Part shown: positions 17,563-54,549 of the stretch, piece after piece
Numbering within the stretch: position 1 is the first letter of the stretch
How the letters are laid out: every line of letters starts with the position of its first letter
Assembly: GCA_030710605.1 (NCBI GenBank)
Contig: CP092870.1
Location: forward strand, 89,405,993-89,469,992
Length of the DNA stretch: 64,000 nt
Origin: Cordylochernes scorpioides
Lineage: Eukaryota; Arthropoda; Arachnida; Pseudoscorpiones; Chernetidae
Direction of reading: 5' to 3'
Made by a program: the position numbers and the translations under genes
Notes under the pieces: generated by a model
The model's database searches: none
Seen by the model: only the letters and a program-made list of their open reading frames with translations
What the model was told of the DNA's origin: nothing

Positions 17563-18051
17563 ACTCATAGACAAAACTTAAGGAAGTTGTACCTTTTAGC
17601 ATGTATATTTTTAAAATTTTATTATTATATGTTATATATTTTCCTCAAAAGAGAACGTTCGAATTCACATATAAAATAAGAATATAAACAGTAAAAATGC
17701 GTTTCTTTATTTGTGCAAAGTGCAATATTTCGGATCTTTATAATCTTTCTACAGACATAGCAATAAGTTTATATAATGAGGATATATGTAAATATGCAAT
17801 ATTATTCACATATACTAATTTTCTCAACTTATAGCTAGGCGTCTGTAGAAGGATTATAAAGATCCGAAAGCTTGCACTTTTCACGAATAAAGAAACGCAT
17901 TGTTATTCTTATTTTATACTTTAAGGAAATTTTCTCTTCTAATGAATTCACATATATGGAAAATACACCGTTATATATGCAAATAAGGAGTGGTTTATGT
18001 TTAAAATATGAAACTTCCTTTAATTTTGTCCATTAGTATATACCAAATGAT
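17563..18051. mobile_element. Tc1-like MITE interrupted by a hammerhead element
   Basis: The left end actcatagacaaaactta and the right end cctttaattttgtccattagt belong to the long MITE form seen at 31250-31713 (shared segment accgttatatatgcaaataa). The middle is the insertion at 17674-17943. Confidence 0.65.
17674..17943. mobile_element. Hammerhead-like foldback insertion, 270 bp, 13-bp TSD
   Basis: A perfect 13-bp duplication, gaattcacatata, flanks it (17661-17673 and 17944-17956). The arms 17699-17761 and 17840-17903 are complementary. In the right arm, plus strand, CUGUAGA is followed by A, then a GGAU/AUCC hairpin, GAAA and GCUUGCAC. The left arm carries the mirror image with small changes. 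Core position 6 is U rather than A, so cleavage is doubtful. Confidence 0.7.
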
Positions 18052-18800
18052 TTGAATATTAAAAGAATTTAACTCTCTTTTAGATATATTTTCTACTAGT
18101 GTATTTGTAAGGGGTTTTATTTGTAAAATGTGAATATATACTATTTAAAAAATAAAACAATTTATTTTTGAATTTATCTCCTTCCCAACTAAAAGAGGAA
18201 CTATCAACCATTTTAAAGAATGTCATAATATTTAAAGAGAAAAGCTATACGACCAATATTCTATTAAATCTTTTCAAAAATTGATTTTTTTTTACTTTCT
18301 CAAATATGCATTTTATTCCTATATGGACGCCCACATTCAATTTTACTACCGCATGTAAATGCATTTAAATGAATTTTCCTTCCCTATCTACATATAGTTT
18401 CTGGCTTATGCAACTTTAAAAAGTGTTGCTTCTTCCTTACATCACACAAATTTTGAAACTCTCTTCCCCTATCCTACCGACTTTTTATTACAGAAATATC
18501 AGAATAATTAGTTGGATTTTCTTCATTAATCAAGTAAAGGCATTTAGCCAATATTATGGAATAATTAACTTCTAGTTGATATTTATTCCGACAGATGGCG
18601 CAAGACATCAGCAACTTTAAGCTGCGCGATCAGAGAAGACGGCTTTTAATTTTTCTTAATTTAACTACCTGATGCCAGTTCACAATATTTGCTTTTGTAA
18701 TATTTTTTTTCATTCAAAAACGCATTGAAATTATTTCTTTGTAAGAAGAAAGTAATAAGAGACATTTAAACAACCAATAAGTATATATTTCCATTTAAAA
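18052..18800. other. AT-rich sequence, fragment of foldback A
   Basis: A short stretch near 18570-18610 (tgatatttattccgacagatggcgc) resembles the foldback A arm. Otherwise no feature is supported. Confidence 0.4.
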
Positions 18801-18811
18801 CTATATATAAA

Positions 18812-18975
18812 ATATGTTGTTGTTGTTGTCGTGTCCAATGAAGAGCCTCAGATGTATCCATGCATCTCTATCACAGCAGCAGCAATGTCCACTATCTTGA
18901 GCGTGTAAAGCTGCTGCTCTGGGTCTTTGTCAATTTTCTGCAAGGCTGCGGCCATTGCTGGGTATGAGAATATAT
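18812..18975 (-). mobile_element. LINE 3' tail, 5'-truncated
   Basis: Reverse complement of the Jockey-like LINE terminus: a (gtt)n run, cgtgtccaatgaagagcctc, then coding-derived tgtaaagctgctgctctggg up to the truncation near 18970. Matches 52072-52240. Confidence 0.7.
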
Positions 18976-18999
18976 ATATAAATATCTAGTATATATATA

Positions 19000-19215
19000 T
19001 ATAATAGATTTCAATTTTTTTGGCTATACTGCCACATGGAAAATTAGGAAAGAAAACTTCAGAATGAAACAGCAATTTATTTAAGGCAAACACAAATTAC
19101 ACACATAATTGATAAAATATAAGATAGGCAATGAGATAAGTTTACAGAGTAGCAAAATATAAAAATATCAAAATTGATCTGTTAATAAAATAATAAATAC
19201 TTTGTTACATATCTC
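19000..19215. repeat. Dispersed repeat, relative of 6200-6450
   Basis: Contains ctgccacatggaaaattagg, agtttacagagtagcaaaat and aataaatactttgttacat, shared with 31720-31800, 33905-34020 and (reversed) 6250-6420. Confidence 0.55.
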
Positions 19216-19554
19216 CTTCCATATGGGAGCTTTGACCCACAGCTAGCAATTATTGTAGCTACTGACAATATATTTTTTTTGAATTTTCAAAAAAATGTTT
19301 TGTAGTACATACCTTCCAAATATATTATCTTGAATATCCATATTCTTATTTTCCATAGGATTATTCAAATAATAATCTGTATATATTTACCATGTGTATA
19401 TAATCTTTCTCCATTTTTACCCCTTTGTATATTTACCACTTTCATAGGTTTCTCCTTATTGTAAACCCAAGGAGAATCCTCTGTAAGACCTGTGTGTCTT
19501 AATAAAGGTTTTTGTGTGTGTGTATATTATCTTGAATATAGAAATTACCTGGCT

Positions 19555-19700
19555 GACATTCATATTTCTTTGAAAATAGACACTTCAGCCAGTTAAAGTT
19601 TTCTATTTTCTCAAGTTTTCAACAAAATCATTTTCTCTTCGTCAGGAGAAATAAAAAGAAAGCATTTGAAAAGACGTTAAAAATATTCTAATATATTGTA
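19555..19700 (-). mobile_element. Partial hammerhead element (family B)
   Basis: Minus strand carries CUGACGA, an A/U-rich stem II, then GAAAACUUGAG (19601-19645). Flanks acctggctgacattcat and cacttcagccagttaaag match the arms of the elements at 56782-56997 and 61783-62160. Stem II pairing has decayed. Confidence 0.5.
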
Positions 19701-19789
19701 AAGGTATTGTCGCTCTTTCTCCCTTTCTTCAACACCATTTATTAAACCATAAATTAAGATTTCAAGGAAAGGCTCTTCAATGATCCCAA

Positions 19790-20432
19790 TATTATTATAA
19801 AAGTATTTTGGTCAAAATCTCTTGACTTATATTTTATATTTATATGAAAAATGTATACTTCAGTCAGTTAGAGTTTTTTTTTTAATTTTCTCAACGTTTC
19901 GACAAAAATCTTTTATCTTTGTCAGGAGAAGTAAATAAAAATAAAGCATTTGGCAAGGCGTATTATATTTTATAATTGAAGAAACTCTTATGAACGTAAT
20001 CTTTTCAATTCTAGCCTAGTTTGAAGATTCCAATTCAATTATACGAGTAAGTTCTTTTTTTATCATTTAAAGTTGAAGTATAGGGAACAGAAAACACTAC
20101 AATGCAATTAACTAGTTTTTGTCGTGTACAATGAAGAGTCTCAGTTGACTCCATAAGTTGGTTAGAAGTCCGACCACATTTCCCTGCGATCCCCCCTTGA
20201 CCATTGGAATATTTGACCAAATTTGGTCCAAGGAGACTAACGTGGCAACGGCACTCATTCTCCAATGAAGAATAGGAAAATTAACGAGTATAAAAATAGT
20301 ATAGAGAATATAAACAATGGACATTAACTGTAATGATTAGGTTGGCCACTTTCATCATATTCTTTTTGCCCACATCTCTCTCTCTCTAATCTATCATAAC
20401 AACAATTAAAACACGAGTTTAAACAAACGCTA
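19790..20432 (-). repeat. Dispersed repeat, about 470 bp (inverse of 29344-29830)
   Basis: Starts with ctaatttagcgtttg on the minus strand and runs through atggacattaactg and gcaactagtt-like pieces to ttgaagaaactcttatgaac. The plus-strand copy lies 9 kb away. The middle carries the gccaacgtta-type segment shared with 12360-12480 and 35650-35770. The copy is interrupted by the hammerhead insertion at 19839-19962. Confidence 0.7.
19839..19962 (-). mobile_element. Hammerhead-like insertion, 124 bp, 12-bp TSD
   Basis: It is flanked by ttatattttata at 19827-19838 and 19963-19974. The related repeat at 29344-29830 has the uninterrupted site (tataaaatatag, 29798-29809), which proves insertion. Minus strand: CUGACAA, a stem II with UUUUUGUC, GAAACGUU and GAGA. 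G8 of the core is A, which should abolish cleavage. Confidence 0.75.
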
Positions 20433-20935
20433 AATTAGGTCAAATTTTCAAGAGCCATAAAAAGAACAATGCTATTTTCTCAAACAGGTCAATGTGGTCT
20501 TACCAAATACATGGTTGGTATGAAATGCTGTTGGTTTACATGAACAATGCCATATTTTGCACACAAAGGCTATAGGGCAATATAACCTTACGAAAGCCAT
20601 AGGACTGGCTAATTTTAAGACGACCCTTGACCTAGCGTCAGCTGCAGTAGAAACTATGGAGTAATGCCTTACCTCAATCCCCGTCTCGTGCCACAAAATT
20701 GGAAAATTGGTGGAGATTTGCGAGGTTTCTTTTTCCAAATTCCAGTGTCGTTGCATTTAGAAACAAAGAAATACTGAGGTTCTTTAACAGAATATGAAAA
20801 ACAAAAACATTGTTTTTAAATGATCGTACAACTGAAATTTGCTGATGACTGTCACTATTTGTCCAAATAAATATCAACTATCTGTTTATTCTAGAATTGG
20901 CCAGATACCCATTCTTGATTAATAAATTAAAAAAA
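20433..20935. other. No gene recognised
   Basis: Mixed-composition sequence with several short frames on the minus strand. None resembles a known family. A CTGATGA near 20845 lacks a partner GAAA and stem. Confidence 0.35.
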
Positions 20936-20940
20936 TCTAA

Positions 20941-20980
20941 CCACGTACACGTTTCGGGCTGTTGGCCCTCGTCAGCGTGG
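20941..20980 (-). ncRNA. Hammerhead ribozyme, best copy of family A
   Basis: Minus strand: stem I CCACG pairs with CGUGG at the other end. Core CUGACGA, stem II GGGC with loop CAACA and GCCC, then GAAA. Stem III is A-C/G-U with a GU loop, and the cleavage triplet is GUA (between 20946 and 20945). All conserved core bases are present. Stem III has only two pairs, as in hammerheads that work as dimers or tandem copies. Confidence 0.8.
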
Positions 20981-21029
20981 TGCAGACTGTATCTCAACCA
21001 CCAAAAAATAATTCTAGTCATTCAAGCAT

Positions 21030-21183
21030 CCTGAAAGGCACCTGATCCAAATACAATCTCACTACTGTACTATGTACACACGAGATAACCATCAAGTGTG
21101 AACAAAATTGCCTCTGTCTTCTTCAAATTCAAATGACCGGCGACATCAAAAACTTTCCACCTTCTTAAGTTTTGCCCATGAGT
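21030..21183. mobile_element. Tc1-like MITE, right half
   Basis: Family interior (cacacgagataaccatcaag, acaaaattgcctctgtct) and the end cttaagttttgcccatgagtg. The left end is missing. Confidence 0.55.
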
Positions 21184-21239
21184 GAAAATCTCATCCAGAA
21201 TTCGATTATATATAACATAACAATTCACATATATTCATT

Positions 21240-21725
21240 TTTATGGCAGAGAGAGCGCCATCTGATGGAATAAATATCAACTAAACTTACGTTGATTTAG
21301 GCCAGTGATTCTCAACCAATGTGCCGCGGTAATTTTGTGTGCCGCGAAATTCTAAAAATGTGCCGCCGAATTTTAGTCATATGATTATGTTCACGTTTGT
21401 ATTGGTTTTTCTTTTTTTCTTTTTCATTTTTTTACTTTTTAAAATAACGAAATTAGCAAATTGAATGTTAGAGATGTATATTACTTATATTTTGCATAGA
21501 AATATTGATACATAATTTGAATTTTCTTGCATTCAAGTTAGCAAAAGTGTGCCGCGAAATTCTAAAATTGTGCCGCCAAATTTTCAAATCTTTAAAATAA
21601 TGCCGCAACAAAAAAAAGGTTGAGAATCACTGATTTAGGCTATTCCAATGCTATTTTACCATCCCATTTCTTGATAAATCAAGAAAAGTAAACTAAGTAC
21701 GCGTTTCGGGCTGTTTTCCCTCGTC
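21240..21725. mobile_element. Foldback A fragment with decayed hammerhead
   Basis: Left part gagagcgccatctgatgg, then after the hAT insertion ccatttcttgataaatcaag and the hammerhead strand. On the minus strand (21692-21725) this reads AUGACGA, GGG, loop, GCCC, GAAACGCGUA: C3 is lost and stem I is replaced by a TA microsatellite. Confidence 0.65.
21303..21632. mobile_element. hAT-type MITE, 330 bp, inside foldback A
   Basis: Perfect 15-bp inverted ends cagtgattctcaacc and ggttgagaatcactg, with a perfect 8-bp duplication atttaggc (21295-21302 and 21633-21640). The interior has subterminal repeats of gtgccgcgaaattctaaaa. Non-coding. Confidence 0.9.
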
Positions 21726-21956
21726 ATATATATATATAGAAATTTTGCCAAGAGGATAATGATCTATAAAAATAAATGTTGCACTCACCCGTCAAAATAG
21801 AAGTAAATGATGTCTAGTTTTGACCTCAATTTGAAGGGAGGGGCGACCTATATATATATACAAGATGGCCTTCAAAGGTCTCGTTCCACTTCATTTACTA
21901 ATGGTATGTTTTCATCGTCCCGCTCCTAAATTATCATTTGGATGCTTGATTATAGT

Positions 21957-22604
21957 GTCTCTTGGAAAACACATTGAAATAGTAATGTAAAGGTATATTT
22001 TGATGGCCCAAATATAGTAAAATGTCTTTGAAAACACATTAAAATAGTAATGTAAAGGTATATTTTGCTGGCCCAAATATAGTGAAATGTCTTTGAAAAC
22101 ACATTAAAATAGTAATGTAAAGGCAAATTTTGCTGGCCCAAATATAGTAAAATGTCTTTGAAAACACATTAAAATAGTAATGTAAAGGTATATTTTGCTG
22201 CCCCAAATATAGTAAAATGTCTTTGAAAACGCATTAAAATAGTAATGTAAAGGCAAATTTTGCTGGTCCAAATAAAGTAAAATGTCTTTGAAAACACATT
22301 AAAATAGTAATGTAAAGGTATATTTTGCTGGCCCAAATATAGTAAAATGTCTTTAAAAACACATTAAAATAGTAATGTAAAGGTATATTTTGCTGGCCCA
22401 AATATAGTAAAATGTATTGGAAAACACATTAAAATAGTAATGTAAAGGTATATTTTGATGGCCCAAATATAGTAAAATGTATTGGAAAACACATTAAAAT
22501 AGTAATGTAAAGGTATATTTTGATGGCCCAAATATAGTAAAATGTATTGGAAAACACATTAAAATAGAAATGTAAAGGTATATTTTGCTCACCCAAATAC
22601 AAAT
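21957..22604. repeat. Tandem array, 65-bp unit, about 10 copies
   Basis: Unit contains gaaaacacattaaaatagta and gtaaaggtatattttg. Period measured as 65 bp between successive atgtctttg sites. Copies are nearly identical, implying recent homogenisation. Confidence 0.9.
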
Positions 22605-22720
22605 AAAACCTCGCTAAAACGAACTGGGGAGATATAGCGAACCTTCCCTTATAACGCCTTAAAAATAATGCCTATTTCTATTTTATAATACAGTGGACTA
22701 TGGCGAGTAAATTCACTAAG
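22605..22720. mobile_element. Pogo-like MITE fragment
   Basis: Reads aataaaacctcgctaaaacg, then agatatagcgaacc and ttttataatacagtggacta, a decayed copy of 358-513 abutting the 65-bp array. Confidence 0.5.
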
Positions 22721-22811
22721 AGATCAAATTGGGGAAAATTTGTCCATATTTTCACCAAAAGCCGATCTTTGCTCGATGTACAATAATACCAACAAAGCTA
22801 TGTGTAATGTG

Positions 22812-25800
22812 ACTAGACCAGACATCCTGACACCAACTGGTACCATCCAGTAGTGTGACTAGACCAGAGATCCTGACACCGACCGGTACCATCCAGTGAT
22901 GTGACTAGACCAGAGATCCTGACACCGACTGGCACCATCCAGTAGTGTGACTAGACCAGACATCCTGACACCGACTGGTACCATCCAGTAGTGTGACTAG
23001 ACCAGAGATCCTGACACCGACTGGTACCATCCAGTAGTGTGACTAGACCTGACATCCTGACACCGACTGGTACCATCCAGTAGTGTGACTAGACCAGACA
23101 TCCTGACACCGACTGGTACCATCCAGTAATGTGACTAGACCAGAGATCCTGACACCGACTGGTACCATCCAGTAGTGTGACTAGACCAGAGATCCGGACA
23201 CCGACTGGTACCATCCAGTAGTGTGACTAGACCAGACATCCTGACACCGACTGGTACCACCCAGTAGTGTCACTAGACCAGAGATCCTGACACCGACTGG
23301 TACCATCCAGTAGTGTGACTAGACCAGAGATCCTGACACCGACTGGTACGATCCAGTAGTGTGACTAGACCAGAGATCCTGACACCGACTGGTACCATCC
23401 AGTAATGTGACTAGACCAGACATCCTGACACCGACTGGTACGATCCAGTAGTGTGACTAGACCAGAGATCCTGACACCGACTGGTACGATCCAGTAGTGT
23501 GACTAGACCAGAGATCCTGACACCGACTGGTACGATCCAGTAGTGTGACTAGACCAGACATCCTGACACCGACTGGTACCATTCAGTAGTGTGACTAGAC
23601 CAGAGATCCTGACACCGACTGGTACCATCCAGTAGTGTGACTAGACCAGACATCCTGACACCGACTGGTACCATCCAGTAGTGTGACTAGACCAGACATC
23701 CTGACACCGACTGGTACCATTCAGTAGTGTGACTAGACCAGAGATCCTGACACCGACTGGTACCATCCAGTAGTGTGACTAGACCAGACATCCTGACACC
23801 GACTGGTACCGCCCAGTAGTGTGACTAGACCAGACATCCTGACACCGACTGGTACCGCCCAGTAGTGTGACTAGACCAGGGATCCTGACACCGACTGGTA
23901 CCATCCAGTAGTGTGACTAGACCAGGGATCCTGACACCGACTGGTACCATCCAGTAGTGTGACTAGACCAGAGATCCTGACACCGACTGGTACCATCCAG
24001 TAGTGTGACTAGACCAGACATCCTGACACCGACTGGTACCATCCAGTAGTGTGACTAGACCAGACATCCTGACACCGACTGGTACCATCCAGTAGTGTGA
24101 CTAGACCAGAGATCCTGACACCGACTGGTACCATCCAGTAATGTGACTAGACCAGACATCCTGACACCGACTGGTACCATCCAGTAGTGTGACTAGACCA
24201 GAGATCCTGACACCGACTGGTACCATCCAGTAGTGTGACTAGACCAGACATCCTGACACCGACTGGTACCATCCAGTAGTGTGACTAGACCAGACATCCT
24301 GACACCGACTGGTACCATCCAGTAGTGTTGCTAGAACAGACATCCTGACACCGACTGGTACCATCCAGTAGTGTGACTAGACCAGACATCCTGACACCGA
24401 CTGGTACCGCCCAGTAGTGTGACTAGACCAGACATCCTGACACCGACTGGTACCGCCCAGTAGTGTGACTAGACCAGGGATCCTGACACCGACTGGTACC
24501 ATCCAGTAGTGTGACTAGACCAGGGATCCTGACACCGACTGGTACCATCCAGTAGTGTGACTAGACCAGAGATCCTGACACCGACTGGTACCATCCAGTA
24601 GTGTGACTAGACCAGACATCCTGACACCGACTGGTACCATCCAGTAGTGTGACTAGACCAGACATCCTGACACCGACTGGTACCATCCAGTAGTGTGACT
24701 AGACCAGACATCCTGACACCGACTGGTTCCATCCAGTAGTGTTGCTAGAACAGACATCCTGACACCGACTGGTACCATCCAGTAGTGTGACTAGACCAGA
24801 CATCCTGACACCGACTGGTACCGCCCAGTAGTGTGACTAGACCAGACATCCTGACACCGACTGGTACCGCCCAGTAGTGTGACTAGACCAGGGATCCTGA
24901 CACCGACTGGTACCATCCAGTAGTGTGACTAGACCAGGGATCCTGACACCGACTGGTACCATCCAGTAGTGTGACTAGACCAGAGATCCTGACACCGACT
25001 GGTACCATCCAGTAGTGTGACTAGACCAGACATCCTGACACCGACTGGTACCATCCAGTAGTGTGACTAGACCAGACATCCTGACACCGACTGGTACCAT
25101 CCAGTAGTGTGACTAGACCAGAGATCCTGACACCGACTGGTACCATCCAGTAATGTGACTAGACCAGACATCCTGACACCGACTGGTACCATCCAGTAGT
25201 GTGACTAGACCAGACATCCTGACACCGACTGGTACCATCCAGTAGTGTGACTAGACCAGAGATCCTGACACCGACTGGTACCATCCAGTAATGTGACTAG
25301 ACCAGACATCCTGACACCGACTGGTACCATCCAGTAGTGTGACTAGACCAGAGATCCTGACACCGACTGGTACCATCCAGTAGTGTGACTAGACCAGACA
25401 TCCTGACACCGACTGGTACCATCCAGTAGTGTGACTAGACCAGACATCCTGACACCGACTGGTACCATCCAGTAGTGTTGCTAGAACAGACATCCTGACA
25501 CCGACTGGTACCATCCAGTAGTGTGACTAGACCAGACATCCTGACACCGACTGGTACCGCCCAGTAGTGTGACTAGACCAGACATCCTGACACCGACTGG
25601 TACCGCCCAGTAGTGTGACTAGACCAGGGATCCTGACACCGACTGGTACCATCCAGTAGTGTGACTAGACCAGGGATCCTGACACCGACTGGTACCATCC
25701 AGTAGTGTGACTAGACCAGAGATCCTGACACCGACTGGTACCATCCAGTAGTGTGACTAGACCAGACATCCTGACACCGACTGGTACCATCCAGTAGTGT

Positions 25801-26712
25801 GACTAGACCAGACATCCTGACACCGACTGGTACCATCCAGTAGTGTGACTAGACCAGAGATCCTGACACCGACTGGTACCATCCAGTAGTGTGACTAGAC
25901 CAGACATCCTGACACCGACTGGTACCATCCAGTAGTGTGACTAGAACAGACATCCTGACACCGACTGGTACCATCCAGTAGTGTCACTAGACCAGACATC
26001 CTGACACCGACTGGTACCATCCAGTAGTGTCACTAGACCAGAGATCCTGACACCGACTGGTACCATCCAGTAGTGTGACTAGAACAGACATCCTGACACC
26101 GACTGGTACCATCCAGTAGTGTCACTAGACCAGACATCCTGACACCGACTGGTACCATCCAGTAGTGTCACTAGACCAGAGATCCTGACACCGACTGGTA
26201 CCATCCAGTAGTGTGACTAGAACAGACATCCTGACACCGACTGGTACCGTCCAGTAGTGTGACTAGAACAGACATCCTGACACCGACTGGTACCATCCAG
26301 TAGTGTGACTAGAACAGACATCCTGACACCGACTGGTACCGTCCAGTAGTGTGACTAGAACAGACATCCTGACACCGACTGGTACCATCCAGGAGTGTAA
26401 CTACACCAGAGATCCTGACACCGACTGGTACCGTCCAGTAGTGTGACTAGAACAGACATCCTGACACCGACTGGTACCATCCGGTAGTGTGACTAGAACA
26501 GACACCCTGACACCGACTGGTACCATCCAGTAGTGTGACTAGAACAGACATCCTGACACCGACTGGTACCATCCAGTAGTGTGACTAGAACAGACACCCT
26601 GACACCGACTGGTACCATCCAGTAGTGTGACTAGAACAGACATCCTGACACCGACTGGTACCATCCAGGAGTGTAACTACACCAGACATCCTGACACCGA
26701 CTGGTACCAGGC
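22812..26712. repeat. Satellite array, 46-bp unit, about 85 copies
   Basis: The consensus contains gtgtgactagaccagagatc, ctgacaccgactgg and the palindrome ggtacc. Variants (acatcc versus agatcc, accgcc, gttgctagaacag) form larger blocks. The gttgctagaacag variant recurs at 24327, 24741 and 25477, spaced 9 and 16 units exactly. No long open frame crosses it. Probably non-coding satellite DNA. Confidence 0.95.
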
Positions 26713-38379: not shown

Positions 38380-38867
38380 CCTTCATGGAAAAAAAACTTA
38401 AGGAAGTGAAAAATCTTTAATCTCGTCTATCGTCTATTTTTTATTTTTAAAGAGGCACAGACATTTTTGTTCACACTTGGTTATCTCGTGTGTCTTCAAT
38501 AAAGGTCACTGTATATCAAATATCTTTCAGAGTTTTTTTGTTACTTAAATTTCCGTTTTATTGTTTTATCACTGTGTAAATCAGATTTTTGCATAACTGT
38601 AGTATATTTTCGGCTTCTTTGCGTGTATATATAATTGGATTAGATCCGAAAACGTCAGTAGCGTAATTTTCCTGTCGAAGGGCGGTTGAGCCCGAAAGCT
38701 TGAAATAAATTTATTTGCTAAAGATACTCATCCCTCAAGCTTATTGATTTTTAACATTCTATTAAGGGATTAGCCTATTAACTATTAATTAATCTTTCAG
38801 AGTTATTGTCTGATTCCCAATATACATTTTAAAAGCTACATCTTCCTTTATTTTTTCCAAGTATGTA
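38380..38867. mobile_element. Tc1-like MITE interrupted by a hammerhead insertion
   Basis: Left half tggaaaaaaaacttaaggaa to atctttcagagtt and right half attgtctgattcccaatat to ttccaagtatgta join into a normal MITE when 38535-38804 is removed. Confidence 0.7.
38535..38791 (+). mobile_element. Hammerhead-like insertion, 257 bp, 13-bp TSD
   Basis: Perfect duplication atctttcagagtt (38522-38534 and 38792-38804) inside a MITE. Plus strand at 38671-38702: CUGUCGA, A, GGGC, loop GGUUGA, GCCC, GAAA, GCUUG. Stem II is intact, core position 6 is U. AGCU next to the core is self-complementary. No inverted arms. Confidence 0.7.
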
Positions 38868-42052: not shown

Positions 42053-42238
42053 TGTGATGTTCCTCTCTTCGATTAAATAAATAAATATATTTTAATTATA
42101 TATCTTTCTAATGTCAAACATACACTTTTTTAATAGATTCTTAACAACAACAATAATTACAGTGCTGCCAAATCCAAACAATCAAAAATAAATTAATTAA
42201 ACAGAGTAGATTATAATATTATTATAAGGTATATTACA
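42053..42238 (-). repeat. 3' LTR
   Basis: Near-identical to the 5' LTR apart from a deletion. Directly upstream (42239-42250) lies a purine tract, GGGGGAGT on the minus strand, the likely polypurine tract for plus-strand priming. Confidence 0.9.
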
Positions 42239-44286
42239 ACTCCCCCGACTTCAAGCGACTTCATCCCTCCTGGGATGTCGATGCAGATAAGGATGGATAT
42301 TGGAGATGTGAGCCGTTCTTGGAGTTGTATCATCAGATAACTTTTATCACCAGATAGCTTCCATTCCTTTCCAACCTTCTGATGTCTTACCAAAATATAA
42401 TCGTCGATATTCATCTCTGGTGGCAGGGCCTTCTTACGACTGTTAAAATAAAACTTTGTTCTTTGTCGGTAGAGGTTTTGCTCAATTTGACTTTTTTCTG
42501 TTTCATAAAGGGGACAGTGAAGATTGAGCTCTTTATCGGCAGGTAAAACAGGGGAAGTTTTTGTAAGTTTGAATAAAGGGGAGCAACCCAGGTAGGAGTT
42601 GTAGGATCTATTATGGTAGCGTACTGCCGCTTTTAAGGCATTTTTCCATCCACCCTTGAAGTGAGGATAGCATGAGAGAAAGGTCTTTATATCTCGTATA
42701 GCTCGTTCCGCTAAACCATTTCCTGCAGGGTGATAAGGAGAAGTAGTTATTAATCGGATGTCTTTGGAGGTTGCCCACCTAGGAAATTCTCCATACACAA
42801 ATGATCTCCCTTGATCGGAGACTATAGTTCTCACTGATTTCAGATCCTCGTGTTCGTTGAAATATTTTATTAGAACACGGCCATGTTGTTTCATTGCCTT
42901 TGCTTGAACCACCCTAGTAGCCTCGTCAATAATTAGTAAAAATGTTGAATTCTTATCCTTGATGTTAGAAGGAGACTCGGCGAAATCTACATGTACAGTA
43001 TGGAAAGGTACCCTTGATTGATAGGGCAAACTCATCTTTGAAGGACGGCTCTTATACTTGAACTTGACTCTTTGACAGATAGGACAAGAAGATACATATT
43101 TCCTTATGTCATTCCTCATACCAGGCCAAACAAAGTGTTGCTTTATTTTATAATATGTCCTCCAAAACCCCGAATGTCCTCCTGATAAGGGATCATCATG
43201 GTACATAGATAAAATTGAAGTTCGATGTTCGTGAGGGACAGAATATTTCCCGTGATCTTCTAATTTTAAAGGAATACTCTGATGTTTAACAAACAGTACG
43301 GTTTGATCGCTGGAATCGGGTGTTTCTACAGCCAATCTAGACAGCGCGTCTGCATCGCTGAGCTCCCTGCCAGAACGGTGGTTCACTCTCATTTCGAATG
43401 AGCTCAGAAACAGCTGCCACCTCGCAAGTCGATCCCGGAGATGGCCACAGGAAAGTAGCTGTGTCAATGCGCGATGATCCGTGTGGACAACAAAAGACTT
43501 GCCTTCCAAATACCATCTGAAGTGTTTGACAGCCTTCAACACAGCAAGGCATTCTTTTTCAGTGATGGAATAATTTTGTTCAGCCTTGGAAAATGTATAG
43601 GAATAATAACTAATCACTCTGAGTTGAAGTGACCTCCTTTTATTCACGTCTCTCTGGTAAAGAATAGCCCCTGTTCCATAATATGAAGCATCTGTTGACA
43701 TTTCATAAGGCAATGACTCATCCGGGATTGCCAGTATTGGTTTTGACGTGATGATATCAATAAGTTTTAAATAGGCCTCTTCACATTTATCAGACCACAT
43801 AAAACTAGAATCTTTTTTCTTCAGGTTGTCCAACGGTCGAACTATCGTGGCATAGTTTGGTATATAGGCCCGAAAATGACCTGTAAATCCAGTAAAACAT
43901 TGTAGTGACTTAAGATCATATGGGCGTTTCATGAGTTTAGCCTTTTCGATTACTTCCTCCTTCATTTGCTTCGAGTTACCGTTGATAATTCTACCTAAAA
44001 GTTCCACCTCAGATACACAAATTTGGCACTTGCCCAAGTTCACTGTCATATTATATTGATTCAGTCTATTGAGAACTTTGTAGGTGAGGGAAGCACATTC
44101 TTCAAGGGTTGGGGCGCCACAACAAATGTCGTCAATGTAAACAACCACTCTGAGTTCCAATAAATCAGCCAACATCTCGCTCATAACCCTTTGAAATCTA
44201 GGAGGTGAATTTTTCCACCCGAACGGTAGTCTCTTAAACTCATAAAGTCCATCAGGTGTTACAAAAGCAGAAAATTTTCTCTTGGC
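42239..44286 (-). pseudogene. pol: Reverse transcriptase, RNase H and integrase
   Basis: Open from 44286 to beyond 42239 (the frame runs into the LTR, stop at 42211). Order: reverse transcriptase with FGWKNSPPRFQR and the catalytic YIDD box (near 44139). The RNase H has STDASYYGTGA, KECLAVL and VHTDHRAL. The integrase zinc finger pattern is H-H-C-C (GGHSG, KQHFVWPG, CPIC). The integrase core has VDFAESP, SDQGRSF and GNGLAERAI. No chromodomain seen. This section has no further breaks, unlike the upstream part. Full Pol would reverse-transcribe and integrate the element. Confidence 0.9.
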
Positions 44287-44287
44287 T

Positions 44288-44839
44288 TTAAGTTAGACCG
44301 ACTTGCCAAAACCCATCCTTCAAATCAATTTTTGTAAAGTATCGACAACCACCAAATTTATTAATGATTAAGTCGATTCTAGGAAAAGGAAAAGGGTCCA
44401 AAAGGGTCTCTTTGTTCAACTGTCGATAGTCAATACAGAGTCGGTAGGACGAGTCCGTTTTAGGAACTAGAATACAAGGTGATGCGTACTCAGAAGTAGA
44501 AGGAGTAATAATATCCCCATCTAGCATCTCCTTGATTTTTCCAGCAGTCCATGCTCTCTTGTGATCCGACATAGGGTAAGGTTTACACGCCACGATGTTA
44601 TTATTGGGCTTCAATAGAAAGGCGATCTCGTGTAATGGTAATTCCTTTTTGGAGACATTGCAAAGCTTGGGGAATATAGTGATCAGGTCATCACTGGTAA
44701 AAATAATTTCTTTTGACCGCAAAGACAAGCACTTAATCTCATCAGTCCCAAAGTTCCATTGAATTCGGAGATCCCTCATGGTGGGCTTTCCTATTAACAG
44801 TTCGAATGGCATCTCCCTCAATATTGTCGCCGTCATCAT
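44288..44839 (-). pseudogene. pol: Protease C-terminus and reverse transcriptase N-terminus
   Basis: 183 residues. Early part holds the protease remainder (FELLIGKPTMRDL). The fingers of reverse transcriptase follow: SPCILVPKTDSSYRLCIDYR and FTKIDLKDGFWQVGL, with the first catalytic Asp in IDLKDGF. The frame ends in TAA at 44288-44290. One extra base at 44287 separates it from the continuation (AKRKFSAFVTPDGLYEF) in the next frame. Confidence 0.85.
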
Positions 44840-45116
44840 TCTCTGTTGATCGTCAACCTCTGAAGTTCCACCTCAATATTCTCAGTACCTCGGACATGAC
44901 TTTCGTCAATCGTTGTTATCGTGGTCTCTGATGAATAACTTTTCCATTTATATTTGGCCAAAAGGTCTCTTCTCATTAGATTGATAGAAGAACCTGGATC
45001 CAAGAAAGCAACAAGTTTTACACCATTTATAATAACGGGCAACATAGAATCGGGACTTTTGCAAGACAAAAATAGGATCGATTTTGTCATCGGGATCGAA
45101 CAACCCTCTAAATTTA
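44836..45116 (-). pseudogene. pol: Protease (N-terminal part)
   Basis: In the -1 frame after the slippery site. The active-site region reads VAFLDPGSSINLM, where aspartic proteases of this class usually have D[ST]G. Here it is DPG. The frame stops with TGA at 44836-44838, and the rest of the protease (LLIGKPTM, equivalent to the conserved G-x-D region) continues in the next frame, so a frameshift splits the domain. Family assignment is firm, function is lost. Confidence 0.8.
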
Positions 45117-45878
45117 TTTTTTTTGAAGAGAAGGCACAGAATTATTTTGATTGTTCATTGTCTGTGATGCCTCCTCAATTTGATCAAGTTGGGCAAAATA
45201 GGCTGGCTTCTTGACCACTGTGTTGCCAGTTGTCTGGTAGGGCTTGGGTTCAAAAGGTTTTTTCTCTAAACTGGGACGGATATTTTTCAGCAGCTGAAGA
45301 AGAGTCTCTTTGTTTTCGATTTTCACAGTGGACAACTGATTCTGCATATCTGGGGGTAGCCCATGAATCACTCCAATTATCAATAGCTTTTCACTTAAGC
45401 CGGGCATCCCTAATCGCATTTTCCTTTGTTTTTGGTGGAAGTAATCGATCAGAGAGCCGCCTCGATATCTCCACTTGAACGCCCTAACATATTTATCTAT
45501 AGGGTTATCCCCAAATGAGGATACAAAATATTCTTTCCATGTTTCCCAGCTAAAGTTGCCTTCATCAGCAAGTCTGCTATCAAACCACCTTCCCCCTAGG
45601 TAGTTTCTCATACCATATATTTTGGATTGATCTTTTACCCAACCATTATTTGCACAGACATTTTCATATAGGGTTATCCAAGTGGCTGGATCTAAGTTAT
45701 TACCGGAGAATCCAGGTGCTTTCATTTCGACATGTCTTGGTGCATATTCATGCTGGTTTAAACTTAAATTTTGAACTAAAGAATTAACTAGTTTTTGTTG
45801 TTTTGCTACAGTAGTTATCAATTTGCTAAAAGTGTCTTCTGTTAATAGAGATTTTGCATCTAATTCCTCCTCATCCAT
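45114..45878 (-). CDS. gag: Gag (capsid region), 254 residues
   Basis: Opens with MDEEELD and contains a capsid-like segment around residues 50-190, including APGFSGNN, WITLYENVCANNGW, GRWFDSRL and a WKEYFVSSFGD motif as in Ty3/gypsy Gag. No CCHC zinc knuckle is visible at the C-terminus. The frame is open upstream of the ATG for about 28 codons (to the C run), so the true Gag start is probably earlier. It ends in a TAA directly after the A-rich slippery site. Gag would form the intracellular particle. Confidence 0.85.
   Translation of the reverse strand: MDEEELDAKSLLTEDTFSKLITTVAKQQKLVNSLVQNLSLNQHEYAPRHVEMKAPGFSGNNLDPATWITLYENVCANNGWVKDQSKIYGMRNYLGGRWFDSRLADEGNFSWETWKEYFVSSFGDNPIDKYVRAFKWRYRGGSLIDYFHQKQRKMRLGMPGLSEKLLIIGVIHGLPPDMQNQLSTVKIENKETLLQLLKNIRPSLEKKPFEPKPYQTTGNTVVKKPAYFAQLDQIEEASQTMNNQNNSVPSLQKK
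45117..45124 (-). promoter_or_regulatory. Candidate -1 frameshift site at gag end
   Basis: On the minus strand A8 followed by TAA: read in the gag frame it gives CAA AAA AAA TAA, an A AAA AAA slippery heptamer directly before the stop. The protease frame is exactly -1 relative to gag and is open across it. This fits programmed -1 frameshifting to make Gag-Pol. No downstream pseudoknot was tested. Confidence 0.6.
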
Positions 45879-45961
45879 TACGCATTTTTGTAAATCTTCA
45901 AATGATCGATTTTTGTATATTTCAATTATTTTTGATGGAACTTTAACAAATCTAATAGAAT

Positions 45962-45978
45962 CCCCCCCCCCCCCCCCC
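45962..45978. repeat. C17 homopolymer inside gag
   Basis: G17 on the coding strand, between the N-terminal gag piece and the open capsid frame. Length error or true slippage here could account for the frame break. Confidence 0.9.
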
Positions 45979-45981
45979 TTT

Positions 45982-46149
45982 CTAAATAGTAAGAATTAGA
46001 TTCTTTCCACATTTAAACACGAGCTCGTGATAAATGGGCAATTGAAATTCTTCAGGGATAGATAGAACATTAGCATCAGGGTTAAAGCTATAGCCAATTA
46101 CCTTTTTATTCTTAAAATGCAGGATGATCGATCCTGTCGGCTGCGCCAT
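45982..46149 (-). pseudogene. Gag N-terminal part, broken
   Basis: ATG at 46147-46149 lies within the primer-binding region and opens a 55-residue frame starting MAQPTGSIIL. It ends in TAG just before a 17-bp C run on the plus strand (45962-45978). The next in-frame gag sequence resumes beyond the run. The start is inferred from its position directly after the LTR, where gag should begin. Confidence 0.6.
46129..46148 (-). promoter_or_regulatory. Candidate primer binding site
   Basis: Four bases inside the 5' LTR the minus strand reads TGGCGCAGCCGACAGGATCG. The TGG start is expected for pairing with a tRNA CCA end. The tRNA identity was not determined. The site overlaps the first codons of the gag leader frame. 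Confidence 0.6.
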
Positions 46150-46360: not shown

Positions 46361-46369
46361 AAAATTATT

Positions 46370-47150: not shown

Positions 47151-47163
47151 TCTCTGAAAAATT

Positions 47164-48080: not shown

Positions 48081-48084
48081 CATT

Positions 48085-48425: not shown

Positions 48426-48441
48426 AATAATAATATAAATT

Positions 48442-48668
48442 ATTTGAAAAAGAAAAAATAATATTAAGGTAAAGATTTTCTTTTAATTTTGATTTCGCAA
48501 AATTTCGAGCAAAATTTCTGCTCTTCAACGGGCATATACTTCTATGTAAGTTCATCTTTATATTGTACATAGAAGTATATGCCCGTTGAAGAGCAGAAAT
48601 TTTGCTCGAAATTTTGCGAAATCAAAATTAAAAGAAACTACCTTAATATTATTCTTTCTTTTTCAAAT
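48442..48668. mobile_element. Inverted repeat (about 105-bp arms) with hammerhead-like hairpins
   Basis: Arms 48442-48549 and 48565-48668 are nearly perfect complements with a 15-bp loop. Each arm carries the motif CGUUGAAGAGC, loop, GCUCGAAAUUUUGC, on opposite strands. Related to the PLE 3' hairpin at 2511-2546. It sits directly after a LINE tail. Confidence 0.7.
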
Positions 48669-48679
48669 TTTGATTTGTA

Positions 48680-49100: not shown

Positions 49101-49119
49101 TCACACATAAAACTAATTT

Positions 49120-49345: not shown

Positions 49346-49559
49346 GATTATAATGAATGAAGACATTAAGTCGCGAATGTCTCTTTTCACAAATAAATCA
49401 AACTTCTGCTATCCTTACTGCGATGAAAAAGAACAGTAGAAGTTTGGTTTATTTGTGAAAAGAAACATTGGCGTCTTAATATCTTTATTCGTTATATATA
49501 GATGGCGTGTTATTTCTTTGTATTAATTAATGATTATGATATTAAAGGATAGCCTCAAT

Positions 49560-49870
49560 ACCGGTTTCTAACCTGGATCTTGGTTGTCACAAACGCGACA
49601 GTTTTGACCACTAAAGCGGCATCTCCGATTGAAACCTATCCATACCAGTCCTGAAGTAGTGTTTGGAAGACAGCATGTGTGTTGAAAGGGAAAACTTGGA
49701 CACGTGTGACCAGGATGGACACTTGAGTAACCAGCACGTGACAGTGAATCACGGGACCAGCAAGGAAACTTTCCCAATCTCCGGCCGGATTTTAAATTTG
49801 TTAATAAACTTCCTCCGAACCTGCCGGGCAACTTTTTAGCCGAGGGAATTAGGTGAGTCATCTGTGATGG
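49560..49870. other. Mixed-composition segment, unassigned
   Basis: GC-richer than its flanks. A 97-codon minus-strand frame has no recognised similarity. It abuts the tandem array and may be a gene remnant. Confidence 0.2.
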
Positions 49871-49879
49871 AGGAAGGTC

Positions 49880-51000
49880 GGTCGGAGTGGAATTGTCTGG
49901 TGATGGCTTGGTGGATGGAGTCTGGTGTAGCTTGGTCCTGGTGATGGCTTGGTGGATGGGTTTGGTGTAGTTTGGTCCTGGTAATGGCTTGGTTGATGGA
50001 GTCTGGTGTTGCTTGGTCCTTGTGATGGCTTGGTGAATGGAGTTTGGATTCTGGTGATGGCTTGGTGGATGGAGTCTGGTCTGGCTTGGTACTGGTGTGG
50101 CTTGTTGAATGAGATCTGGATTCTGGTAATGGCTTGGTCCTGGTGATAGCTTGGTCCGGGTTATGGCTTAGTCCTGGTGATGGCTTAGTCCTGGTGATAG
50201 CTTGGTCCCGGTGATGGCTTAGTCCTGGTGATAGCTTGGTCCCGGTGATGGCTTAGTCCTGGTGATAGCTTGGTCCCGGTGATGGCTTAGTCCTGGTGAT
50301 GGCTTGGTCCCGGTGATGGCTTAGTCCTGGTGATAGCTTGGTCCCGGTGATGGCTTAGTCCTGGTGATAGCTTGGTCCCGGTGATGGCTTAGTCCTGGTG
50401 ATGGCTTGGTCCTGGTAATGTGGCTTAGTCCTGGTAATGGCTTGGTCCTGGTGATGGCTTGGTCTTGGTGATGGCTTGGTGAATGGAGTTTGGACTCTGG
50501 TGATGGCTTGGTGGATGGAGTCTGGTCTGGCTTGGTCCTGGTGATGGCTTGGTCGATGGAGTCTGGTGTGGCTTAGTCCTGGTAATGGCTTGGTCCTGGT
50601 GATGGCTTGGTCTTGGTGAATGGAGTTTGGATTCTGGTGATGGCTTGGTGGATGGAGTCTGGTCTGGCTTGGTCCTGGTGATGGCTTGGTCGATGGAGTC
50701 TGGTGTGGCTTAGTCCTGGTAATGGCTTGGTCCTGGTGATGGCTTGGTCTTGGTGAATGGAGTTTGGATTCTGGTGATGGCTTGGTGGATGGAGTCTGGT
50801 CTGGCTTGGTCCTGGTGATGGCTTGGTCGATGGAGTCTGGTGTGGCTTAGTCCTGGTAATGGCTTGGTCCTGGTGATGGCTTGGTCTTGGTGAATGGAGT
50901 TTGGATTCTGGTGATGGCTTGGTGGATGGAGTCTGGTCTGGCTTGGTCCTGGTGATGGCTTGGTCGATGGAGTCTGGTGTGGCTTGGTGAATGAGATAAG
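49880..51000. repeat. GGT/GCT-rich tandem array with higher-order units
   Basis: Basic motif of about 17 bp (tggcttggtcctggtga). A 34-bp form (cttggtcccggtgatggctt) repeats at 50190-50400. A 137-bp higher-order unit repeats at 50629, 50766 and 50903 (ggattctggtgatggcttgg). Confidence 0.9.
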
Positions 51001-51379
51001 AGAGAGGTAAAAGCAGTCGCTAACTACCCACCATGAATATCATGGCCTGTACCACGTGTACTAGGGATAATCAAAAAACTATAAAAATTGACGATTTTTT
51101 TGAAAAGTGAAATATTTCACAAAAATCCACCACCTCCTTATTATTTTATATCAGTAATGCTAGTCAACAATTTATAAATTGTTGTGGTTTTATTTTCGAG
51201 GAAAAAAAGTGGAGAATAAATTGTCTCTCTTATCTCACCAAGTCTATTTACAAATAGCCAGTCTAGTATTGCTCCTTGATTGCAGACGTTTTCGTTCAAG
51301 GTGATTTTTGACCGAGGACGTCTAGTGGCATTGCAGACCATGTTGAAACCACTATAGCTATGAGAGTCCGTTGACCACC

Positions 51380-51720
51380 TATACTCATGGACAAAACTTA
51401 AGAAAGTGGAAAGTCTTTGAGATAATTTAAACAATTTTATTGATTCTCTTCCAATCAATTGCTACAGAGAAATATATTATATATAATAAATTGATAAAGA
51501 GAGAGCAATCTCTCGAAATATTTTGAGAAAAAAATTGTTTGTTTTTTTTTACAGATCCAGGTACGCCCTTTTTTTATAAAGAATAATATTTTTTGTTGAG
51601 TTTGTTGTTGACACACTTTAAAATGTTTTTAATATATTGATAAAGGTTGGCGTTCAGCCAACTGAAATATTGGTAAAATAAATGATATTTTGATCCAATA
51701 TATGCCTTTTTATTTAAATA
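51380..51720. mobile_element. MITE end and hammerhead-like foldback pieces
   Basis: 51381-51425 is a Tc1-like MITE left end (actcatggacaaaacttaag). At 51491-51526, plus strand, UUGAUAAAGAGAGAGCAAUC precedes UCUCGAAAUAUUUUG. At 51640-51680, UUGAUAAAGGUUGGCGUUC precedes AGCCAACUGAAAUAUUGG. The two have different but paired stem II sequences. Confidence 0.5.
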
Positions 51721-51859
51721 TTTATTCATAGATTGCTCTATTTTCAAAAAGAATAATATATAATAAAGGTATAAATAACGTGTAGATAAAACGTAGGGGA
51801 ATATATATATATAGATGGATATGTGTACAAAGTTCTTCAGCGAGGGAGGTTTCCCCACC

Positions 51860-52020
51860 TTGAGAGAGTTCTCCAGATAAAAAGGGGGTCTTCTTGAACA
51901 CTCCTCAGTTCCACGTCGAGGAAGTACTTGAGGGTCTTGTCAGACGCCAGGATGGCCAGGGTGTCATTATCCAGGCCTCGCCCGAAGACCCAAAGTCTTT
52001 AATACTGCCAGTGATTTTTT
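51860..52020. other. GC-richer unassigned stretch
   Basis: aggtttccccaccttgagag to aggcctcgcccgaagaccca reads like degenerate coding DNA but no frame is convincing. Confidence 0.2.
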
Positions 52021-52021
52021 T

Positions 52022-52459
52022 TTTTTATTGAAGGATACAAAGAAAATTGTGTACACACTTGGTTATCTCGTTGTTGTTTTTGTTGTTGTGTCCAATGAAG
52101 AGCCTCAGATGTCCCCGTGCATCTCTATCACAAGAATCTCAATGTCCACTATCTTGGGTGTGTAAAGCTGCTGCTCTTGGTCCATGTCAATTTCCTGCAA
52201 AGCTGCGGCCATTGCTGGCCATGAGAATATGTGGGTAAGTGTAAGTTCCACACTAGGACATTTGTTGCATGTCCTATATTTTCTTATGCCATCTGGATGT
52301 ATTGTCATTCCTTTATAGTGTTTCGTTCTGAGTCTTGTTTTTTTGGTTATCTCGTGTATCATCAATAAAGGTCACTGTAATATATTTCAGGGTTATTGTC
52401 TGAATACAGCTATACACACTAAAAGGTACAACTTCCTTAAGTTTTATTCATGAGTGTAC
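52022..52459. mobile_element. Tc1-like MITE interrupted by a LINE tail
   Basis: Left part (ggatacaaagaaaattgtgt, cacacttggttatctcgt) and right part (ttggttatctcgtgtatcat to aagttttattcatgagtgta) rejoin when 52072-52355 is removed. Confidence 0.7.
52072..52342 (-). mobile_element. Jockey-like LINE 3' end, 13-bp TSD
   Basis: Flanked by ttggttatctcgt at 52059-52071 and 52343-52355. The minus-strand frame, to TGA at 52105-52107, contains RTKHYKGMTIHPDG and CNKCPSVELTLTHIFSWPA, the cysteine-histidine end of Jockey-type LINE ORF2. It is followed by a tail of cattggacacaacaacaaaa repeats. Heavily 5'-truncated. Same family as the tails at 12252, 18812, 35765 and 61090. Confidence 0.85.
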
Positions 52460-52971
52460 AATGGCGATGTGTAATACACACTATCAATGCAACGCCAGTA
52501 GAATTATTTCAGTAATAGATCCATCAGAACCATGTCAGAATACCATGCAAGCTATGGGTCACAACTCCCATAAAGTTATGTAACAGAATACTTTATTGAA
52601 TAATAAATCTACTTTTCTCTCATGTCACAATCTCTTATCTTTCTTTTCATTTCTCTGCTCTTTGATACAAATAAAATTGTGAAAAAAATAGTACAAATGT
52701 GAAATTATACTGGGGTAAGATGGATGAATTAAGAAAAAGGAATCTCCTTATCGTGCAACTAAATCATATGCCATCACTAACTTTTAGTTTCATGATAAGA
52801 TGTATTTTTCTTAACAAATAAAATTGTATGGACATTCTGACTTTGGCTTATTACATGTTTCTATTTGAATATGGTTGAGATTCAGGGAGTAATCCTTTAA
52901 CTCAGATATTTAAATAAAAATGAATGCTTGCGATAATTTTATATTTGAAGGATTTTTATGGTCCCTATCTA

Positions 52972-53184
52972 CACTCATGGACAAGACTTAAGGAAGTGGA
53001 AAGTCTTTATGTCTCCGGTATCTTTTTTTGTTTTTTAAGGTGACAGAGGCGATTTTGTTCAGACTTGGTTATCTCGTGTGTCTTCAATAAAGATCACTGT
53101 GTATCAAATATCTTTCAGAGTAATTGCCTGAATCCCGATATACATGCTGAAAGGTACAAATTCCTTAAGTTTTGTCTATGAGTG
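52972..53184. mobile_element. Tc1-like MITE, complete reference copy, 213 bp
   Basis: Ends cactcatggacaagacttaa and its complement ttaagttttgtctatgagtg are intact, interior uninterrupted. Left flank is TA. Useful as the reference for the interrupted copies. Confidence 0.75.
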
Positions 53185-53570
53185 GATATGAAGCTATAAC
53201 ATTGGATTATTCTGCTTCAGATTATTGATTTGAAAGTATCTTTATTGTCAAGAATTATGAAATTCTTGCTGCTGAGTATCAGTTTTATCCATAATAACAA
53301 GGGTTGAACCTTTATCTGATCTTTAAAATTGCTATAATTTCGTTTCTCTCTAGTTTTAAATAAAAGAATATTCCTTTATTACAAATATTTTTTTAATTCG
53401 CACTATTATTTTCAAATTGTGCCAAAAAATAAGTTTGAAATCATTAATTAAACTTTCTAGAGACAGTGCAAAACAAATATATATATCATTTATATCCATT
53501 CCAATTTTTATATTAATAACTTATAAATTACCGTAAATATAGAGGCTGCCTGCTCTTAAATTTGAAGAAC
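53185..53570. other. AT-rich, no feature seen
   Basis: No repeat family or open frame of note. Confidence 0.35.
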
Positions 53571-53583
53571 TTATAAAGTACTC

Positions 53584-54242
53584 ATGGTAAACGGTTTGCG
53601 GATTTCGACAAATTAGAAAGAAGGAATCATATATCGCCGCAACTCTTTTTATTATTATAGCGGTTAAGGAAGCTTTCGGGCAAGCCCTTCTTCAGCTAAT
53701 TATATTGTACAAACAAAGAGAGATTATATATCGTTTTTAATATAAATCAAAATAAACGAAAAGAAATTTACCACGCCCCTATCGCCCTCGTTTCAATAGC
53801 ACCGCGTGGCCACGTTATGTCTGATCCTAACTTCAAATGTAATATGGTACAAAAATATCTTAAAAGAAAGTTACGTAATTGAATAAATATAAAGAATCAA
53901 CTATAAACAGTTCAAAGGATTTAGTGACTTATTGAACTATTGAACTGTTTATAGTTGATTCTTTATATTTATTCAATTACGTAACTTTCTTTTAAGATAT
54001 TTTTGTACAATATTACATTTGAAGTTAGGATCAGACATAACGTGGCCACGCGGTGCTATTGAAACGAGGGCGATAGGGGCGTGGTAAATTTCTTTTCGTT
54101 TATTTTGATTTATATTAAAAACGATATATAATCTCTCTTTGTTTGTACAATATAATTAGCTGAAGAAGGGCTTGCCCGAAAGCTTCCTTAACCGCTATAA
54201 TAATAAAAAGAGTTGCGGCGATATATGATTCCTTCTTTCTAA
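53584..54242. mobile_element. 659-bp insertion: 305-bp inverted repeats, two hammerhead-like motifs, 13-bp TSD
   Basis: A perfect 13-bp duplication, ttataaagtactc, at 53571-53583 and 54243-54255. Arms 53611-53915 and 53940-54244 are almost perfectly complementary (one mismatch seen) around a 24-bp loop. The last two arm bases overlap the duplication. Each arm carries CUGAAGA, A, GGGC, UU, GCCC, GAAA, GCUUCC: plus strand at 54160-54187, minus strand in the left arm. Arm identity implies a young head-to-head insertion or dimer. Confidence 0.9.
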
Positions 54243-54549
54243 TTATAAAGTACTCTTTATGACTTCTTAATACGTCACAAATAGTCATAAAATGTTCTTT
54301 AGTCTCACACAAAAAGAACCATACAAACCTCCTAAATACCACAAAGACTTCAGAAATTACTATGGGAACGTTCTAAGGGCCAATATGGAACGCGCGGAAC
54401 GTAGAGGATTCAAAAATATTCAATTGTAAATCCCTTAATTATTCTTATTTTCTTCAACATCTGTTATATCTCCTCAAAAAAACATAAAGTTCCTTAAGGA
54501 CCTTATAGAGTTCTCAGGGACACCTTAGGTAAGGAAATCAAGCTTGTTA

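Follow-up and report, generated by a model that had tools for sequence, protein, structure and literature searches.

The question raised by a 64,000-nt stretch of the pseudoscorpion genome (Cordylochernes scorpioides, contig C8:89405993-89469992 of a 2.62-Gb, 24-contig genome; hereafter the window) is what kind of element left behind a series of short insertions that carry hammerhead ribozyme-like motifs and lie between short direct repeats. An initial annotation, made from the letters of the window, had listed five such insertions (Table 1), had ascribed target duplications of 12-13 bp to all of them, and had proposed that they represent several families using one integration machinery. We find that these insertions very probably derive from Penelope-like retroelements (PLEs) as short copies truncated at the 5' end, most of them composed of two pseudo-long terminal repeat (pLTR) ends joined head to head, with each pLTR bearing either a minimal type I hammerhead or some variant thereof. 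The sequence compared amounts to 362 kb from three contigs, i.e., the window, 18 kb beside it, 200 kb of C1, and 80 kb of C12; results given for 282 kb cover the window, the 18 kb of flanks, and C1 before the C12 sequence was included.

The five insertions span 124-659 bp, and the proposed duplications proved to be exact in four of them (13, 12, 13, and 13 bp), with the fifth matching at only 11 of 12 positions. When spans of the same five sizes were placed at random with tandem arrays excluded, an exact repeat of at least 12 nt within around 20 nt of the ends appeared in 61 of 20,000 placements and one of at least 13 nt in 50 of 20,000; without that exclusion, the counts for 12-13-mers rose to 321 to 1094 of 6000, a figure inflated by the tandem arrays of the window. 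Insertions 2 and 5 belong to one family (82% over 83 bp), so that five insertions represent four families. Insertion 1 and a relative at L025:5169-5244 (91% over 78 bp) agree in their hammerhead-like core.

Table 1. Insertions, duplications, hammerhead-like motifs, and related features, in window positions (strand "." as recorded).
Feature	Position	Strand	Description
Insertion 1	17674-17943	+	arms inverted head to head; ~29-nt tail, right end
Insertion 1, duplication	17661-17673 / 17944-17956		exact 13-mers GAATTCACATATA
Insertion 1, hammerhead-like motif	17843-17873		core CTGTAGA (A6U)
Insertion 2	19839-19962	-	family A end, 5'-truncated, tail-less, single one-sided copy
Insertion 2, duplication	19827-19838 / 19963-19974		exact 12-mers TTATATTTTATA, A/T only
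Insertion 2, hammerhead-like motif	19893-19925	-	core CTGACAA
Insertion 3	38535-38791	+	low-copy element, without clear palindrome
Insertion 3, duplication	38522-38534 / 38792-38804		exact 13-mers ATCTTTCAGAGTT
Insertion 3, hammerhead-like motif	38672-38701		core CTGTCGA (A6U)
Insertion 4	53584-54242	.	305-nt perfect inverted repeat (53611-53915 / 53940-54244), 24-nt spacer; ~27-nt tail, left end
Insertion 4, duplication	53571-53583 / 54243-54255		exact 13-mers TTATAAAGTACTC
Insertion 4, hammerhead motifs, both arms	53670-53695; 54160-54185	-; +	core CTGAAGA
Insertion 5	56782-56997	-	family A palindrome; tail ending CCTCTATCTTTACGA, right end
Insertion 5, duplication	56770-56781 / 56998-57009		inexact, TTAGTTTAGTTT vs TTAGTTTGGTTT, 11/12
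Insertion 5, hammerhead motif	56826-56858	-	core CTGACGA
Further family A palindrome	61780-62170	.	no duplication found
Another family A copy, next to insertion 2	19535-19691	-	no duplication found
Decayed PLE-type GIY-YIG endonuclease fragment	2769-2978	-	internal stop; tblastn 34%/70 aa, E = 1.3e-8
pLTR-like end, family of C1:2021 and C8:-8112	2455-2563	-	89%/110 bp, 90%/77 bp
Palindrome of another family	7226-7556	-	hammerhead motif in loop (7387-7416, -, CTGACGA)
Palindrome, same family as 7226-7556	11478-11785	-	48-nt tail; flanked by exact 12-mers TATATACAAATG
Hammerhead core, stem II, and GAAA (CTGACGA)	20952-20975	-	non-palindromic copy related to loop of 7226-7556

The connection to PLEs is provided by the family of insertions 2 and 5 (family A), of which the window, its flanks, and C1 contain 16 stretches. 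One of these loci is a 1.66-kb palindrome (C1:30158511-30160170; L018:8511 to L019:170) with a family A end on each side, halves that are around 94% identical, and in each half a GIY-YIG endonuclease frame above the Pfam cut-off (E = 2.2e-6 and 7.1e-6). It is flanked by the exact 12-nt repeat TAGCATAGTAAT and carries an extra stretch, TCGAAAAGATAGAGG...CAT, on its left end only; read in hammerhead sense, this tail contains an ATG (ATGAATGCCGGCCAGGC...) that is perhaps the start of the open reading frame (ORF). Insertion 5 terminates in the same tail and insertion 2 terminates like the tail-less arm, its 3' terminus ...CATATAAA falling at the place where the endonuclease-bearing copy has its flush terminus, ...TATATAAA. 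Since both insertions end at family termini, their boundaries are fixed by the family and not solely by the repeats. With boundaries fixed, an exact repeat of at least 10 nt was found among the 16 family A copies for insertion 2 only, the rest having 8-9 nt or none. A protein search with the endonuclease returned one 192-aa protein, with candidates confined to near the query length, and a search of the PDB gave no match.

While family A thus shows the GIY-YIG endonuclease expected of PLEs, a second family (that of the pLTR-like end at 2455-2563) has only a decayed, below-cut-off fragment of one. This fragment (2769-2978) was also matched by a second tblastn query (E = 3.6e-5) and scored 16.8 bits with the Pfam GIY-YIG model, under the 22.6-bit cut-off (E = 0.0089). 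The pLTR-like end sits around 200 nt downstream of it, and its relatives C1:2021 and C8:-8112 are palindromes that each have an exact 12-bp duplication.

How general this anatomy is was addressed with an unbiased search for inverted repeats, which found 74 loci across the 282 kb. At 4, 5, and 2 of these loci, the best exact repeat on the flanks measured 12, 13, and 14 nt, versus 1, 0, and 0 of 888 random placements (11 of 74 versus 1 of 888 for 12-14 nt taken together), and repeats of 18 and 25 nt were seen at one locus each versus 0 and 2 placements. In all 362 kb, there were 95 loci including 68 compact palindromes, and these were scored with mismatches tolerated in the flanking repeat; 34 of them reach the score of 9 from which we call a repeat duplication-like. 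At this score or above, 26 of the 68 compact palindromes combine a flush end with a single tail of 20-50 nt, corresponding to the optional tail of around 30 nt that PLEs have on one inverted pLTR, compared to 1.08 expected (13/816), and none is symmetric (0.42 expected); the tail classes were defined after earlier palindrome results had been seen, and the null used the same classes. Insertions 1, 4, and 5 count among the 26. Raising the score to at least 10 retained 19 one-tailed palindromes, 5 of them in the window; the tail measures 23-48 nt (median 28) and sits at the left end of 10 and the right end of 9, and the aligned duplication lengths are 10-19, most often 13. The duplications are richer in A+T (80%) than the sample (64%), and the tail sequences recur between copies of a family, which identifies the tails as element sequence. 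A palindrome with a one-sided tail and a duplication of mostly 10-14 bp is a pattern that recurs in several sequence families within the 362 kb from three contigs.

All five insertions were initially described as hammerhead-bearing, and this description stands as far as the layout is concerned: a core-like 7-mer, a hairpin, GAAA, and a self-complementary A-N-N-U are present in each. The consensus CUGANGA is matched by the cores of insertions 4 and 5, and insertions 2 and 5 fold into the two stems (I and II) of minimal type I hammerheads; a type III assignment was considered for insertion 5 and dropped in favour of type I, with which its stem I and minimal helix III agree. Judged by the core, the minimal type I hammerhead that PLEs carry in their pLTRs would appear intact in insertions 4 and 5 and as a variant in insertions 1, 2, and 3. 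Scanning the 282 kb for this layout, with up to one substitution allowed in the 7-mer, found 22 hits where the null averaged 4.1 (maximum 10 in 40 simulations), and 13 where it averaged 0.65 (maximum 2) when at least 2 bp of stem I were present, although several of the hits come as a pair from the arms of a single palindrome and are thus not independent. The scan overlooks the motif at 20952-20975, where the G at position 17 was rejected before a longer helix III was tried. A whole-genome search with the hammerhead family gave 0 matches with 74 of 285,298 candidates scored and none in control genomes either, so that it is uninformative.

Insertions 1 and 3 share a replacement of A6 in the core by U (A6U) with several further loci. 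Hairpin-like loci with GAAAGCT, found with a search pattern that favoured A or T at position 6, comprise around seven with U6 (insertions 1 and 3, C12:25183, C12:27438, C1:170919, C1:169332, and C1:191913, which has C at position 4 as well) versus three with A6 (insertion 4, C1:18634, and C8:-7080). In an eight-row alignment of A6U loci, with rows picked by eye and the A6 loci C1:18634 and C8:-7080 left out despite their GAAAGCT, the sequence of stem II varies by family while its pairing is largely kept. The A6 of hammerheads is part of the uridine turn and, to our knowledge, invariant in active ribozymes. Our literature search found no paper on a hammerhead with A6U, and the recurrent change of A6 to U in the core is possibly new.

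Families without similarity to each other are connected by the distances from the hammerhead cleavage point. The flush end lies 41 nt from it in insertion 1, 57 nt in insertion 4, 44 nt in insertion 5, and 54 nt in insertion 2, as well as 48 nt in C1:158511 and 49 nt in C1:169250, and on arms that bear a tail, the tail end follows at 70, 86, 82, and 82 nt; both ranges (41-57 and 70-86 nt) agree across unrelated families. It is mainly because of this shared geometry that we group insertions 1 and 4, which have no sequence in common with family A, with the PLEs, and head-to-head copies with inverted pLTRs are seen in insertions 1, 4, and 5 and in C1:158511. Short target-site duplications, another PLE trait, are likewise present. 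Of the proposal that several families use one integration machinery, the shared anatomy and the position of two families beside GIY-YIG sequence speak in its favour, while insertions 2 and 5 cannot be counted as separate families. The data fit one type of machinery shared among several families, be it a single enzyme or that of several PLE lineages.

Several observations weigh against this assignment to PLEs. Insertions 1, 3, and 4 have no endonuclease-bearing relative within the 362 kb and are tied to PLEs purely by their anatomy, and insertion 3, without a clear palindrome, is placed there by its motif and duplication. No PLE reverse transcriptase frame is shown for these elements, and no search aimed at this domain was made. 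Three of the five cores depart from CUGANGA (CTGACAA in insertion 2, CTGTNGA in insertions 1 and 3), and Rfam reported no hammerhead over the window up to E = 1, a silence that we would attribute to the minimal helix III. In five palindromes (1.75 expected), neither end lies within 20 nt of the repeat, and three others (1.92 expected) belong to none of the tail classes. Finally, copies of the kind that had been named beforehand as speaking against a shared integration machinery, i.e., without a duplication or with a wide range of lengths, do exist in part: 34 of the 68 compact palindromes have no duplication of score 9, none of 21 palindromes in the 80 kb of C12 has an exact one of at least 12 nt, and aligned lengths run from 10 to 19.

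The closest competing explanation is that the insertions are non-LTR retrozymes, non-autonomous type I hammerhead retroelements that spread as small circular RNAs through PLE or other machinery. Animal retrozymes resemble what we see in having type I hammerheads, a length of a few hundred bp (124-659 bp here, with no LTR), and no coding capacity, and PMC7229834 gives their duplications, if present, as longer than the 4 bp of plants; PLEs have moreover been proposed as retrozyme helpers (PMC7761336). Yet the same sources describe retrozymes as multiple tandem copies, with tandem organisation and circular RNA as defining features in PMC7229834, whereas the insertions here are single or inverted and TRF found no tandem array, of a 150-400 bp unit with a type I hammerhead or otherwise, over any of the five. 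As the element whose end family A forms has an endonuclease of its own, and as the one-sided tail suits PLE ends, we consider retrozymes an unlikely source.

Long inverted repeats, short non-coding bodies, and a near-constant duplication length would also be found with foldback or miniature inverted-repeat transposable element (MITE)-type DNA transposons that had captured hammerhead-like hairpins by chance. Such elements should have matching terminal inverted repeats at both ends, but the ends here are not mirror images, given the 20-50 nt tail in 26 cases and the lack of any symmetric palindrome at a score of at least 9. The long copy encloses a GIY-YIG endonuclease and not a transposase, and insertion 2 is a truncated one-sided copy, which together make this origin highly improbable. 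Even less credit is due to the idea that the direct repeats arose by chance beside hairpin-rich, A/T-rich DNA: the repeat of insertion 2 does consist of A/T only, as do several weaker palindrome cases (C8:-6215, C8:7226, and C12:10141), but the rarity of exact repeats in both random-placement controls argues against it.

For the PLE origin of the insertions, a course of events can be proposed. The GIY-YIG endonuclease would nick the two strands of A/T-rich DNA around 12-14 bp apart, as the duplications suggest, and each cut strand would prime reverse transcription within the RNA of the pLTR and ORF start at one of two start sites, located past the hammerhead cleavage point, around 41-57 and 70-86 nt further downstream, with the intervening stretch forming the tail. 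Near the hammerhead, the two cDNAs would then be joined in head-to-head orientation, and the duplication would result once the ~13-bp stagger is repaired. The hammerhead itself probably cleaves tandem PLE transcripts as a dimer through the A-N-N-U helix III. In vitro, the protein of one PLE, that of Anolis, has been shown to cut A/T-rich sites on both strands, to extend both, and to start on the RNA at two internal sites that define the tail, with hammerhead cleavage dispensable for insertion (PMC11167929). The ribozyme of that element cuts at 26 nt and the main start lies 111-118 nt into the ORF, so that the two are 85-92 nt apart, and the tail between its start sites measures 30-40 nt (PMC11167929).

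Self-priming on an antisense template has been proposed for PLE palindromes (PMC3846280). A simple snap-back would copy the tail too, contrary to the palindromes described here, and early termination could be a way out. It is conceivable, though on balance we lean against it, that a complex resembling an asymmetric dimer uses the distal (tail) start on one strand and the proximal start on the other, with the 26-to-0 excess of one-tailed palindromes as its footprint, and that part of the PLE hammerheads, those with A6U and a paired stem II, may have kept their fold for protein binding rather than cutting.

PLE integration is represented in print by one purified active enzyme, and the steps past the first strand have not been validated (PMC11167929). 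The many compact palindromic insertions with readable ends in this genome make the stagger of the cuts and the choice of start sites countable instead of merely inferable. If true genome-wide, the one-tail rule constrains models of second-strand synthesis, as free choice of start sites at two ends would be expected to yield symmetric copies and so would snap-back of the first cDNA. The A6U motifs would offer a test of whether the PLE hammerhead is retained for cleavage. While the kind of element is known, the 26-to-0 asymmetry is possibly new.

Besides the insertions, the window contains further palindromic or hammerhead-like loci. A mariner-like element at 10175-11469, whose 33-bp terminal inverted repeats are perfect and whose transposase frame is interrupted, lies immediately adjacent to a PLE-type palindrome. 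At 48442-48668, a near-perfect hairpin with 72-bp arms and a 17-nt spacer has no detectable duplication and is the source of several below-cut-off Rfam microRNA-family matches; matches of this kind sit on hairpins, and we read them as artefacts. The stretches at 57655-57795 and 58827-59008 belong to a family whose member C1:194869 is one-tailed and palindromic, with 18 nt repeated at its flanks. At 15419-15766, a 129-bp unit occurs twice in tandem followed by a third, inverted copy; its hairpin CTTGAAAAAGG...GAAATATT resembles a hammerhead with altered core, and relatives are frequent in C1, where C1:15603 has an exact 13-bp duplication. Other features comprise a Ty3/gypsy element (42211-45995, minus strand, three frames), a frame of which is 93% and 81% identical to C. 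scorpioides proteins over 35% and 39% of its length, a 46-bp satellite (22804-26709; ~85 copies, 96% matches, G+C far above its surroundings), and a tRNA-like stretch at 62422-62479 that is above the Rfam cut-off, uncalled by ARAGORN, and perhaps the head of a short interspersed nuclear element.

Our literature search found nothing joining hammerhead, cephalopod, and Penelope, and among the matches listed none was shown to name a pseudoscorpion. The minimal type I hammerheads of PLE pLTRs, as treated in PMC7761336 (section 6), likewise have a helix III without non-conserved nucleotides and are expected to act as dimers, but the subclass described here differs by U instead of A6 and AGCU instead of ACGU. 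The Penelope elements Pen2a, Pen2, and Pen3a of Adineta vaga share with our insertions the GIY-YIG endonuclease, inverted pLTRs at a head-to-head junction, short target duplications, a 31-bp tail that one inverted pLTR may carry, and captured or solo pLTRs flanked by duplications (PMC3846280). Their duplications are 8-10 bp long compared to mostly 12-14 bp here, the available text mentions no hammerhead for them, and palindromes made of pLTRs only are very frequent in our sample. The Poseidon element PAc of Anolis carolinensis (PMC11167929) resembles ours in its hammerhead near the ORF start, its A/T-rich targets with both strands cut and extended, and its two adjacent internal start sites with a 30-40 bp tail between them. 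Copies of PAc are described as tandem arrays, unlike the single or inverted insertions here, and its top and bottom strands reportedly show the same use of start sites in vitro, whereas the genomic palindromes of C. scorpioides always join two different ends.

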